NCBI GenBank assembly: GCA_025358515.1
Contig: JANYJG010000161.1
Coordinates: 1-41,151 of the forward strand
From: Chloroflexota bacterium
Lineage (GTDB): Bacteria; Chloroflexota; Limnocylindria; Limnocylindrales; CSP1-4
DNA length: 41,151 bases
Reading direction: 5' to 3'
Shown here: positions 13,962 to 17,869 of the stretch, one piece after another
Layout of the letters: each line of letters starts with the position of its first letter
Numbering within the stretch: position 1 is the stretch's first letter
The notes under the pieces: generated by a model
What the model was told of the DNA's origin: nothing
Seen by the model: the letters and a program-made list of their open reading frames with translations, nothing else
Database searches by the model: none
Position numbers and translations under genes: made by a program

Positions 13962-13989
13962 AGGCGTTGCCGTCCTGAACGGCAACCCT
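13962..13989 (+). terminator. stem-loop after argH
   Basis: GTTGCCGT (13966-13973) pairs perfectly with ACGGCAAC (13979-13986) around the loop CCTGA. AGG/CCT extends the stem after one bulged C. It lies 40 bases past the argH stop and about 125 bases before amtB, so it probably ends the argH transcript. No T-run follows. Confidence 0.6.
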
Positions 13990-14028
13990 GGCGCGACCCG
14001 ATCGCGACCCAAGGTTCACTCGCCCGCC

Positions 14029-14058
14029 ACTGATTCGGCGCGCCACTCTCAATACGCT
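14029..14058 (+). promoter_or_regulatory. predicted amtB promoter
   Basis: ACTGATT at 14029-14035 and TACGCT at 14053-14058 are 17 bases apart. The same arrangement, ACTGATT-N17-TAnnCT, precedes the small gene at 15621. The distance from the -10 to the start codon is also almost identical (55 and 56 bases). Confidence 0.45.
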
Positions 14059-14113: not shown

Positions 14114-15352
14114 GTGATTCTGACCGGAGCCAAGATCGATACCGGGGACACAGCCTGGGTGCTGATGTCGATCGCCCTGGTCATGCTCATGACGCCCGGC
14201 CTGGCGCTCTTCTATGGCGGTCTGGTCCGCCGCAAGAACGTCCTGAGCACGATGATGCAGAGCATCTTCATCCTGGCGCTGGTCAGCGTGACGTGGGTCC
14301 TGTTCGGCTTCACGCTAGCGTTCGGCAAAGACGTCAACGGCTGGGGCATCATCGGTAACCTCGACTTCATCGGCCTGCGCGGCATCGGCAAGGACCCGAT
14401 TTCCTACGCCCCGACCATCCCGGCCAGCGCCTTCATGGCCTTCCAGATGATGTTCGCCATCATCACACCGGCTCTGATCACGGGAGCCTTCGCCGAGCGC
14501 AAGCGCTTCAAGGCGTTCGTCCTATTCAGCCTGCTCTGGACCCTGCTCGTCTATTCGCCGATCGCTCACTGGGTCTGGGGCGAAGGCGGCTGGCTGCGCA
14601 ATCTGGGCGCCCTGGACTACGCCGGCGGCACCGTGGTCCACATCAGTTCCGGCGTGGCCGCCCTGGTTGCCGCTCTGGTACTGGGCCCACGGGTTCGGCG
14701 TGAGTCCGAGCGGTTCGAGCCGCACGACGTTCGTTTGGCCGTCATCGGCGCCGGACTGCTGTGGTTTGGCTGGTTCGGCTTCAACGGCGGATCGGCGCTT
14801 GGTGCGAACGGCTTCGCCGCGAACGCCATCGTCGTGACCAACACCGCGGCCGGCATGGGCGCCCTGACTTGGGTCACCGTGAGCTGGCTTCACAAGGGCA
14901 CTCCGAGCCTTGTGGGCGCCATTTCGGGCGCCGTCGCCGGCCTGGTCGCCATCACGCCCGCCTCTGGTTTCGTGGACGCAAGCTCGGCCATCGTCATCGG
15001 AATGGCCGCCGGTTCAATCTGCTACGGCGCGATCCTGCTGCGCGAGCGCCTCAAAATCGACGACGCCCTAGACGTTTGGGCGGTGCACGGCGTGGGCGGC
15101 ACCCTCGGCGCGATCCTGACCGGCGTCTTCGCCGTGGCCGCCGTGGGCGGTGCCAAGGGTCTGATCGACGGTAACGCGGGCCAGATCGGCATTCAACTCA
15201 TGGCGGTCGTCGCGACGTGGGTGTACAGCGGCGTCGTCACTTTCGTGATCCTCAAGGTCGTCGACCACTTCGTGGGCCTTCGCGTCGAGGAGGCCGAAGA
15301 GGAGGCCGGCCTGGACGCCTCGCAGCACGGCGAGGTCGCCTGGCAGGGCTAA
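14114..15352 (+). CDS. amtB: ammonium transporter
   Basis: 412 residues with 11 expected helices, full AmtB/Mep/Rh length. It conducts ammonium across the inner membrane. The pore twin histidines correspond to H176 (GTVVHISSG) and H325 (WAVHGVGGTLG), the two most diagnostic residues. The start is GTG 14114 with AGGAG at 14101-14105. There is no glnK/PII gene next to it, which is unusual because amtB is commonly paired with glnK. A hairpin follows the stop codon. Confidence 0.97.
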   Translation: MILTGAKIDTGDTAWVLMSIALVMLMTPGLALFYGGLVRRKNVLSTMMQSIFILALVSVTWVLFGFTLAFGKDVNGWGIIGNLDFIGLRGIGKDPISYAPTIPASAFMAFQMMFAIITPALITGAFAERKRFKAFVLFSLLWTLLVYSPIAHWVWGEGGWLRNLGALDYAGGTVVHISSGVAALVAALVLGPRVRRESERFEPHDVRLAVIGAGLLWFGWFGFNGGSALGANGFAANAIVVTNTAAGMGALTWVTVSWLHKGTPSLVGAISGAVAGLVAITPASGFVDASSAIVIGMAAGSICYGAILLRERLKIDDALDVWAVHGVGGTLGAILTGVFAVAAVGGAKGLIDGNAGQIGIQLMAVVATWVYSGVVTFVILKVVDHFVGLRVEEAEEEAGLDASQHGEVAWQG

Positions 15353-15378: not shown

Positions 15379-15620
15379 CAGGCGAAGTCGCGCCCCACTG
15401 TCGGACCCAGCCGATTGCGACCCTACCGCTTCCTTTGTCTCTAAATCGCGTCCCGATGCGTATCGCCTGGGTGGCTCGTACCCAACCGCAACCCCGCCGA
15501 AACCTGCGCGCTACCCATGTACCACCGGCGCGCTACTGATTTACGCCGCCCCCTTTCATAGACTAAAAGCATCGAAACGGGACCGCGGGTCCTACCAGGT
15601 TCAGCCGAAGGAGCCAAACG
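15379..15620 (+). other. leader and spacer between amtB and the small gene
   Basis: No gene seen up to 15534. From 15535 the predicted promoter of the small membrane gene begins (listed separately), and its 5' untranslated region of about 50 bases contains a short palindrome GGGACCGCGGGTCC near 15580-15593. Confidence 0.5.
15535..15564 (+). promoter_or_regulatory. predicted promoter of the 27-codon gene
   Basis: ACTGATT (15535-15541), 17 bases, then TAGACT (15559-15564), matching the amtB promoter layout. Transcription would start near 15571, giving about a 50-base leader with a good Shine-Dalgarno. Confidence 0.45.
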
Positions 15621-15704
15621 ATGATCGCAGCCGCATTCGTCAGCTTCGGCGTCCTGGTCGTGGCCTGGCTGATTGCTCCCTCGCGCGCTCACGTCGCCGA
15701 GTAA
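15621..15704 (+). CDS. 27-residue single-helix membrane protein
   Basis: ATG 15621 follows AAGGAG (15608-15613) at 7 bases, an excellent Shine-Dalgarno. The frame runs 27 codons and ends at TAA 15702-15704. The product is an uncharged hydrophobic helix (about residues 3-19, with FVSFGVLVVAWLIAP) and a polar tail with Arg, His and Glu. A promoter box like that of amtB lies upstream and a hairpin terminator downstream, so it looks like a real separate unit. Its length is similar to small proteins that bind transporters, but its partner, if any, is unknown. It was found by reading for Shine-Dalgarno plus ATG. Confidence 0.6.
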   Translation: MIAAAFVSFGVLVVAWLIAPSRAHVAE

Positions 15705-15742
15705 CGGGCGGCCTTCCCCAACTCAAGCAGTCGGCCCTGCAG

Positions 15743-15780
15743 CCCGCGTCCCTTCGGCAGGTGGCGCGGGTTTCGTGTTT
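15743..15780 (+). terminator. intrinsic terminator after the 27-codon gene
   Basis: CCCGCG (15743-15748) pairs with CGCGGG (15765-15770), followed at once by the T-rich TTTCGTGTTT. It lies between the small gene (plus) and the convergent response regulator (minus). Confidence 0.65.
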
Positions 15781-15835: not shown

Positions 15836-16549
15836 CTAGTCGGCCTCTCCGAGCCGGTAGCCGACGCCGCGGACGGAGGCAGGCACGGGCGCTCCGGCTT
15901 GTGCGAGCTTGGAGCGCAGGCGAGCCAGATGGGGTTTGAGCCACTGCGGGTCCGGATTGGGCTCGCCGGGCCAGCCCGCAGATAACAGCGAGCTGTGCGA
16001 GACGACGTGTCCCGCGGCCGCCACCAGCGAAGCGAGCAGACTATATTCGGTGCGAGTCAGGACCAACTCCTCGTCGGACACGGTTGCCGTGTGGCGGCCT
16101 CGATCCAGGACGATCGAGCCCCAGCGCAACTCCCCGACACCACGGGGCTCCGCGTCGTTGCCGCGACGCCGCATCACGGCCCGGATGCGGGCCAGCAATT
16201 CCTGCTTTCCGAAGGGCTTGACCACGTAGTCGTCTGCGCCGGTGTCCAGGGCCTCCACCTTGGCCCGCTCGTCGGCCTCGCCGGTGAGGACGATTATCGG
16301 TGTCTGGGACATGCGCCGGATCGCCCGGCAAACCTCCACGCCGTCCAACCCGGGCATTGCCAGGTCGAACAGGACAAGGTCGGGCCGCTCCTCGCTGAAT
16401 CGGCGCAGGGCGGTGTTGCCATCGTAGGCGGTGACGACCCGATGGCCGGCGCGACCAACCAGGGCCGAAACGGCACCCACCATCGCCGGCTCGTCGTCAA
16501 CGACGAGGACCAGCAGGCTCGTCTCTCCGCTGGGGGTGGTCACGCTCAA
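15836..16549 (-). CDS. OmpR/PhoB-family response regulator
   Basis: 237 residues with an N-terminal receiver domain (about 12-125) and a C-terminal winged-helix (OmpR/PhoB) DNA-binding domain. The phosphoacceptor is Asp62 in LFDLAMPG, with acidic VVDDEP near residue 17 and KPF near residue 112. The C-terminal RGVGYRL motif is the wing of the DNA-binding domain. The start is TTG 16549, supported by GGAGG 6 bases upstream; a GTG at 16543 is less well placed. The histidine kinase gene ends 18 bases upstream on the same strand. Its targets are not evident. Confidence 0.93.
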   Translation of the reverse strand: MSVTTPSGETSLLVLVVDDEPAMVGAVSALVGRAGHRVVTAYDGNTALRRFSEERPDLVLFDLAMPGLDGVEVCRAIRRMSQTPIIVLTGEADERAKVEALDTGADDYVVKPFGKQELLARIRAVMRRRGNDAEPRGVGELRWGSIVLDRGRHTATVSDEELVLTRTEYSLLASLVAAAGHVVSHSSLLSAGWPGEPNPDPQWLKPHLARLRSKLAQAGAPVPASVRGVGYRLGEAD

Positions 16550-16567: not shown

Positions 16568-17869
16568 CTAAGACTCGGATCCCGACTCCGACATGACGCC
16601 GGCCTCGGGGCCGCTTACAGTATCGATAGTGTCGCTCATCTTGGGCACAGCCACCATAAATCTGCTGCCGCCGTATCCATTCGACTCCAGCCAGACTCGT
16701 CCGCCCATCGCTCTCATCAGCCGCCGGGCCGCATACAGGCCGATACCGGAGCCGCGCTGCCGGTTCGCCGTGCGGACGTAGGCCTCGAATACTGATTCCC
16801 ACTCGGGCTCGGGGATGCCCGGACCGTCGTCCGTAACGTAAACCTGGATCTCGTCGCCCTCCCGCCACACGCCGACACTGACGGCACCTCCGGTAGGGGA
16901 ATACTTGACCTCGTTCTCCAGGAGGTGCTCCAGGACCTGGCGGAACCGGGCATCGTCTCCCAGGCCCATGAGCGGCTCCCAGTTCCCGGTACGGCGCAAC
17001 GGATGCTCGCGCAGCAGCGGCGACATTTCGCCGATCGTGTCGTTTACCGCGCGGGCGATATCGAACGGCAGGCGCGACAGGCCCGCCGCCAGACCGTCGC
17101 CGCGGACCGAAGCCAGGATCGAATCGACGAGTCGATCCAGGCGGGTAACCTGGCCAACGGCCTGGTCGCGCCAATCTTCCACGACCTTTGGGTCCGGCTT
17201 GGCCGCTCCACCGGCGGCGTCCACGGCGGCATCCGCCAGGAGGTCGACATATGCGCGAACGACCGCCAGCGGCGTCCGCAGCTCGTGCGTGACAACCGCC
17301 AGCAATTCGGCTCGGGCGTCGTCGAGCGCAGTCAGGGTTTCCAGCTGCTCTTCCGCCTCGGCTTGGAGCCGGCCCTTCTCGACCACACCGCCGAGCAGCG
17401 CCCCGATCGTCACGAGGAACTCGACCTCCTCCGGCGAAAACGTGCGGGTCTCGATCGTCTGGACATTTAGGACACCGATGATCGAGTCATTCCAGGGCAG
17501 CGGCACCGAAAGCATTGAGGTGAACTGCGATTCGTCGAAGCCGGGCACCCATTTGAAGCGTGGGTCGACTCGAACGTCGGGCGACGCGACGGGCGTCCCG
17601 AGCTCGGCCGCGCGCCCGGTCAATCCCTCGCCCAGACCCAGCGTGACGCGCCCGATCTGGTCGCGGTCCAAGCCGTTCGTCGCCGACAAACGCAGGCGCG
17701 AGGCATCCCGCTCCATTAGATAGACGGAGCAGACCTCCACGTCCAGGGCGGTCGTGGTGCGGTCCACGACGATGCGCATCAACTCGTCCCAGTTGCGGGC
17801 CGTCGTCAGCAGTTTGGCGAATTCGTGTAGGAACGAGAGTTCGCGCAGCTTGCGCCCGGCGTCCGTCAC
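16568..17869 (-). CDS. soluble GAF-domain sensor histidine kinase
   Basis: 433 residues with no transmembrane helix, so it acts in the cytosol. A GAF domain spans about residues 20-170. HisKA contains the H-box THELRTPL with phosphorylated His195, and the HATPase_c domain shows an N-box at NEVKYSP, DDGPGIP and GSGIGLYAARR. It should autophosphorylate and pass phosphate to Asp62 of the following regulator. The signal bound by GAF is unknown. The start is GTG 17869, preceded by GAGGG. Confidence 0.93.
   Translation of the reverse strand: MTDAGRKLRELSFLHEFAKLLTTARNWDELMRIVVDRTTTALDVEVCSVYLMERDASRLRLSATNGLDRDQIGRVTLGLGEGLTGRAAELGTPVASPDVRVDPRFKWVPGFDESQFTSMLSVPLPWNDSIIGVLNVQTIETRTFSPEEVEFLVTIGALLGGVVEKGRLQAEAEEQLETLTALDDARAELLAVVTHELRTPLAVVRAYVDLLADAAVDAAGGAAKPDPKVVEDWRDQAVGQVTRLDRLVDSILASVRGDGLAAGLSRLPFDIARAVNDTIGEMSPLLREHPLRRTGNWEPLMGLGDDARFRQVLEHLLENEVKYSPTGGAVSVGVWREGDEIQVYVTDDGPGIPEPEWESVFEAYVRTANRQRGSGIGLYAARRLMRAMGGRVWLESNGYGGSRFMVAVPKMSDTIDTVSGPEAGVMSESGSES

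Follow-up and report, generated by a model that had tools for sequence, protein, structure and literature searches.

We found that the ammonium channel gene amtB of a Chloroflexota genome is followed by a 27-codon gene that encodes a selected protein under purifying selection. Within its genus the gene is preceded by a second copy of the operator-promoter found at amtB, and in several Chloroflexota classes gene order links it to amtB. We named the gene smP, for the small single-helix membrane protein behind amtB. Judged from these sequence patterns, SmP is probably a subunit dedicated to the AmtB ammonium channel, with an accessory or regulatory role. The window, meaning the whole 41,151-nucleotide stretch of DNA that was analysed, contains the following features around smP.

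14114 to 15352, forward strand: amtB, ammonium channel (Pfam match, PF00909, E 9.8e-134)
15621 to 15704, forward strand: smP, 27-codon gene for a small single-helix membrane protein (frame conserved with protein-like evolution)
15741 to 15772, forward strand: GC-rich hairpin downstream of smP that resembles a terminator but has no clear T tract (fold of -21.7 kcal/mol)
15836 to 16549, reverse strand: gene for an OmpR-type response regulator that converges on smP and may act on the repeats described below (Pfam match, PF00072 and PF00486)
16568 to 17869, reverse strand: GAF-domain sensor histidine kinase (Pfam match, PF02518, PF00512, and GAF)

The smP gene and its conservation in the genus

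In the window sequence, smP starts with the ATG at 15621, runs for 27 codons, and has a stop codon that ends at 15704; a GGAG Shine-Dalgarno sequence lies at 15610-15613. The frame translates as MIAAAFVSFGVLVVAWLIAPSRAHVAE. Residues 2-19, the predicted membrane helix, are hydrophobic and include no charged residue, and every charged residue comes C-terminal to the helix. A preliminary description of this DNA, made from the sequence alone, had claimed a Shine-Dalgarno sequence and an ATG frame of 27 codons encoding one hydrophobic helix, as we observed. A Pfam search with the window protein gave no match up to E 1, and the smP family matched nothing in Pfam, NCBIfam, or PDB better than E 0.04 (best values, 0.048, 0.094, and 0.3, respectively). 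The window as a whole had no Rfam match at gathering scores and no tRNA. The gene is unannotated; its occurrence in several classes of the phylum suggests that a conserved family has been overlooked in annotation.

We searched for the protein in the window genome and 40 relatives. The frame was present in all 20 other genomes of the genus (E values of 2e-10 to 1e-5) and in none of the 20 relatives outside the genus. In 19 of the 20 other genus loci, amtB lies upstream of smP on the same strand; the contig of the 20th starts 250 bp before the frame. The Shine-Dalgarno sequence is kept throughout the genus loci, and the start codon is ATG or GTG. Thus, the check that the preliminary description had proposed, a search of related genomes for a conserved frame of 25 to 30 codons with the same helix behind amtB, gave a positive result in the genus and, as described below, beyond it.

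The pattern of substitution is that of a protein-coding gene. Across the 21 genus genomes, pN/pS is 0.26, and the fractions of non-consensus bases at codon positions 1, 2, and 3 are 0.11, 0.07, and 0.26, with the third position most variable. One alternative sense frame over smP is broken in 19 of 21 genomes, and no stop interrupts the second alternative sense frame or one of the antisense frames in any of the 21; hence, the mere openness of the smP frame is no proof of coding. These open frames, and the shortness of 27 codons, are what could be said for a chance frame with a promoter that shares a 7-mer by chance. We give that explanation next to no weight, since the conservation, the codon pattern, and the operator copies described below speak against it and rule out a chance frame. 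A leader peptide of a downstream gene was likewise rejected for the window, because the hairpin and the convergent gene stand 3′ of smP.

In the 15 genus loci with a whole nearest amtB, the window included, 192 to 572 bp separate the amtB stop codon from smP; this count leaves out L043, whose amtB appears frameshifted. A tandem pair of amtB genes is present in 11 of 20 genus loci, and smP lies behind the second copy. At L030, L037, and L043, one of the tandem copies is split into two pieces in different frames, by a frameshift or an assembly error. In the window's own draft genome, the gene at 14114 to 15352 is the only Amt gene found.

The shared operator-promoter, the smP leader, and the neighbouring regulator

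In the genus, smP is its own transcription unit, separate from amtB. Its upstream elements, and the corresponding elements of amtB, are as follows.

13971 to 14058, forward strand: amtB copy of the operator-promoter module, with ACTGATT at 14029-14035 and the -10 element TACGCT at 14053-14058 (alignment, PWM scan, and genome-wide model search)
15477 to 15564, forward strand: smP operator-promoter module, an array of about six direct repeats of 11 bp closed by ACTGATT (15535-15541), a 17-base spacer, and the -10 element TAGACT at 15559-15564 (44-site alignment, PWM scan, and genome-wide model search)
15579 to 15593, forward strand: leader hairpin 1 with a GGGAC/GTCC stem (predicted in 21 of 21 leaders)
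15598 to 15615, forward strand: leader hairpin 2, with most of the Shine-Dalgarno GGAG (15610-15613) in its 3′ arm (predicted in all 21 leaders)

At smP, 17 bases separate ACTGATT from TAGACT and a further 56 lead to the start codon; at amtB, 17 bases separate ACTGATT from TACGCT and 55 lead to the GTG at 14114. The window sequence therefore bears out the earlier claim of an amtB-like promoter in element, spacing (17 bases), and leader length (56 versus 55 bases). The alternative offered with that claim, chance sharing of a 7-mer, was refuted: ACTGATT closes an array of about six repeats that, among strong sites, is present only before amtB or smP.

An upstream alignment identified a conserved block in all 21 genus genomes. 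Using an iterated PWM scan of 314 kb of genus loci, we detected the 94-bp module at 44 sites, each before an amtB copy or smP, and at none after one base shuffle per locus. Alignment of the 44 sites gave a repeat unit of G-N-N-A-C-C-N5 at 11 bp, with the core A and C present in >99% of units. We also searched the 21 whole genus genomes with a sequence-only model, with at most 150 candidates scored in each. At least 51 strong sites (E up to 3e-10) were found, all before amtB or smP; by coordinates, the 7 of the 51 that lie beyond the aligned 44 are no more than 200 bp upstream of one of these genes. A gap in E values then extends to 1.5e-4, followed by at least 20 weak sites. We opened 6 of 20 weak sites, of which 1 is inside a long frame and 5 precede the same amino-acid permease gene (a match to AA_permease, PF00324, in each of three tested). 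These weaker copies, at L315, L316, L317, L318, and L319, suggest that the permease is a third member of the regulon, and their position in five genomes fits a nitrogen-uptake regulon. Elsewhere in the class, degenerate arrays scoring above the 99th percentile of control stretches precede amtB in 14 of 26 loci of families f4 and f5 and in 11 of 38 others.

The smP promoter did not match the sigma-70 consensus. This may be expected if an activator replaces the -35 contact. GlnR-type operators comprise 11-bp direct repeats with an AC core before nitrogen-uptake genes, and the 44 aligned sites have this organization. The Streptomyces coelicolor amtB promoter is described as having six GlnR sites spaced at 11 bp with an AC core, gTnAC-n6-GaAAC-n6 (PMC5826061); the operators here consist of about six GNNACC-n5 units, also at 11 bp with an AC core. 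GlnR_1st (PF21695) matched in none of the 21 genus genomes, and it also had no match above the cut-off in any of 14 control genomes.

By position only, the OmpR-type regulator and the GAF kinase, which is likely its partner, are candidates for action at the repeats. A response regulator was present in the fetched neighbourhood of 18 of 20 genus loci, with a kinase seen in fewer than all 18; the distance from the regulator to smP is <1 kb in 6 of the 20 loci and about 3.7 to 7 kb in 12. Response regulator and kinase genes are also near smP in four class loci of other genera (L073, L095, L096, and L098), and no match to either was found in 12 opened loci of other classes, which cover at most about 1.5 kb on each side. 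At L037 and L035, an operon resembling that for cytochrome bd (cydA, cydB, and transporter genes, identified by eye) occupies the interval between smP and the response regulator on the opposite strand; a similar gap, of 6 to 7 kb, is present in 11 of 20 genus loci.

Two other readings of SmP bear on these neighbours. SmP could belong to a nitrogen-limitation regulon and act elsewhere, for instance on the neighbouring kinase or the membrane, and stand with amtB for co-expression only. Its separate promoter in the genus agrees with this, as do the regulator and kinase genes in the neighbourhood of smP in the genus loci and in the 4 class loci of other genera. We nevertheless consider it improbable: amtB adjoins smP in 19 of 20 genus loci, but the regulator comes as near as 1 kb in just 6, and the 12 opened loci of other classes show no such neighbour within the 1.5 kb or so covered on each side. 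SmP could also be a known small subunit of another complex that has been displaced to amtB. CydX and KdpF are similar to SmP in size, and genes resembling those for cytochrome bd lie between smP and the response regulator in two opened gaps. Those genes are on the opposite strand, however, Pfam and NCBIfam searches up to E 1 gave no match to either model, and smP is linked to amtB in other classes as well; we rejected a CydX- or KdpF-like subunit as very unlikely.

The smP leader and the region behind the gene also contain conserved hairpins. In hairpin 1, paired changes (GGGAT/ATCCC, GGGAC/GTCCC, and CGGGT/ACCCG) were noted by eye. The CAGCCGAAGG of hairpin 2 is invariant in all 21 genus leaders. 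The predicted fold of the window leader is modestly more stable than that of shuffled sequences (z, -1.78; 9 of 200 shuffles were as stable). Translational control of smP through the leader hairpins is possible. The 5′ arm of the hairpin at 15741-15772 is present in all 21 genus loci, and the element folds as a hairpin in 16; of the other 5, 4 reflect an earlier match taken by the script and 1 contains Ns. The preliminary description had assigned smP its own terminator hairpin. A conserved GC-rich hairpin is indeed there, but the terminator label was borne out only partly, because a clear T tract is missing and a terminator scan gave no score for this hairpin.

Relatives of smP and the distribution of PII in Chloroflexota

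Profile searches identified smP relatives of 25 to 48 residues in other families and classes of Chloroflexota. With a profile of the 21 genus proteins, we searched 177 genomes of the class and found relatives in two other families, f4 and f5. Other genera of the window's family, f1, gave only weak matches (best E, 0.01), which look like chance. All 33 class loci outside the genus with an E value up to 0.0033 were examined. In 30 of them smP lies directly behind amtB, and at L082 it lies behind an amtB fragment; at L089 it comes before amtB, and the contig of L095 starts 29 bp before smP. The start of smP is 9 to 34 bp past the amtB stop codon in 25 of the 30, 74 bp past it in 1, and 148 to 217 bp past it in 4. 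In most f4 and f5 loci, smP is presumably in one operon with amtB. Among 40 further amtB loci of the class, a small hydrophobic frame lies behind amtB in 2 (G126 and G147), both clear smP relatives. Of the 40, 36 come from f1 genera other than the window's, and none of these has such a frame; 3 of the 36 hold <250 bp behind amtB. In some f4 genomes (L076, L080, L086, and L093), a sequence resembling a thiamine pyrophosphate riboswitch, identified by eye, comes after smP.

We extended the search to 400 Chloroflexota genomes with a profile of 36 SmP proteins (E up to 0.01, with up to 18 candidates scored per genome). At least 47 genomes had matches, at least 27 of them outside the class. Of 12 opened loci of other classes, 9 have smP directly behind amtB and 3 do not. 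By coordinates, smP is also behind amtB in G187, G203, G219, G340, and G361 and before it in G277 and G354; the G277 match may be chance, because the opened locus (L323) shows no clear smP. For 11 of the 27 genomes outside the class, no amtB adjoins the smP match among the matches listed, and some matches of this kind are surely chance. L089, L322, and L325 all have an smP-like frame upstream, rather than downstream, of an Amt gene.

We also inspected 80 amtB loci from many phyla, 5 of which hold <150 bp behind amtB. A small hydrophobic frame lies behind amtB in two, both from Chloroflexota: L235 (Ca. Chloroheliaceae) and L236. L314 also passed the small-frame filter but differs in type from smP. 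The smP profile, run against 43 of the 80 genomes, gave two matches, both in Chloroflexota, and missed the genomes of L235 and L236. In one of the two matches, L325, smP stands before a distant Amt gene (34% identity). Because the profile missed L235 and L236, the frames at these two loci may be only analogous to smP.

In the 36 aligned proteins, M1, A5, L12, W16, and P20 are invariant and F9 and A19 are nearly so. A5, F9, L12, W16, and A19/P20, at a spacing of 4-3-4-3, share one predicted helical face, as for packing on a partner. PF00543 (PII) was absent among the families matched by any of the 36. Homologues outside the genus mostly end in Ala-Ala after a variable tail; genus members have no such end.

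PF00543 matched in none of the 21 genus genomes, most of which are incomplete drafts. Across the class, Amt was found in 103 of 177 genomes and PF00543 in 6 of 177, and 98 of the 103 Amt-positive genomes had no PF00543 match. In five of the six PII-bearing genomes, glnK lies directly behind amtB, in keeping with the earlier statement that smP occupies a place where glnK often lies; Amt had no match in G044, the sixth. Across the 400 genomes of the phylum sample, Amt was found in 297 and PII in 165 (153 above the curated cut-off), and all 165 were used for the statistics. The list of smP carriers was read from coordinates, and most of the phylum genomes are drafts. PII was found in 1 of the 32 genomes with smP beside amtB and in 147 of the 265 remaining Amt-positive genomes (Fisher P of 3e-9, uncorrected for relatedness). 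Outside the class, the counts were 1 of 14 carriers versus 143 of 248 others (P of 3.5e-4, also uncorrected for relatedness). SmP is no strict substitute for PII, because G203 carries all three genes, in the order PII-amtB-smP. Nor does an AmtB without PII require SmP, because many Amt-positive, PII-negative genomes lack it. We therefore rejected strict replacement of PII as a rule.

A proposed role for SmP at the ammonium channel

AmtB and GlnK are the textbook pair for ammonium sensing; GlnK, at about 110 residues, is soluble. SmP has the same genomic place as GlnK, directly behind amtB, but is a single hydrophobic helix without PF00543. GlnK acts as a trimer whose T-loops block AmtB (PMC10714827). 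The same paper describes sP36 of Methanosarcina mazei as a soluble protein of 61 residues with no transmembrane helix that is raised under nitrogen limitation and brings GlnK1 to AmtB1. There, sP36 is tied to channel control, and both it and SmP are small and tied to the ammonium channel. SmP differs in having 27 residues and, by its sequence, a hydrophobic helix, instead of a soluble chain of about 61 residues. It also differs in that bridging to PII finds no counterpart in the 21 genus genomes, mostly incomplete drafts, where PF00543 was absent.

Small single-helix transporter partners have one hydrophobic stretch, fewer than 50 residues, and a gene tied to one transporter, and SmP, with 25 to 48 residues and a gene beside amtB, has all three features. 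KdpF is one such partner. AcrZ and MgtS, also of <50 residues, have reported binding to their transporters (PMC10710835). SmP is a putative membrane partner that shares their size; their transporters are different, and they have no Pfam or NCBIfam family in common with it. Among the literature matches listed, none described a small membrane protein linked to AmtB, or a loss of PII, in Chloroflexota.

The proposal in the preliminary description of a small regulator or subunit of the ammonium channel is supported, and SmP may bind AmtB and alter its activity. SmP and AmtB would be induced together, probably by nitrogen limitation; an OmpR-type regulator, perhaps the one in the neighbouring two-component pair, would relay the signal. 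SmP would insert as one helix with its N terminus outside and its tail in the cytoplasm; the tail is probably cytoplasmic, because all charges follow the helix in the window protein. The face formed by A5, F9, L12, W16, and A19/P20 would pack on the AmtB trimer, and the tail would face the side of the channel that GlnK uses for docking in other bacteria. From that position, SmP may modulate how AmtB gates or how stable it is, in cells mostly without detectable PII.

Alternatively, SmP could be an assembly or stability factor for AmtB, a chaperone-like or protease-shielding helix with no regulation of transport. The linkage to amtB and the co-regulation are the same under this explanation, and small helices such as MgtS and MgtU shield transporters from FtsH (PMC10710835). 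The Ala-Ala ends of most homologues outside the genus might also bear on turnover. A general need in assembly is disfavoured by the absence of smP behind amtB in other genera of the window's family, and we regard this explanation as the less likely one. We favour a dedicated accessory or regulatory subunit.

More speculatively, much of Chloroflexota might control ammonium uptake independently of PII, with a one-helix subunit in the AmtB trimer whose tail replaces GlnK at the cytoplasmic face. Making the channel and setting its activity would then both fall to a single regulon. SmP, a co-regulated one-helix protein at the place of glnK in several classes, is a concrete candidate for control of the channel.
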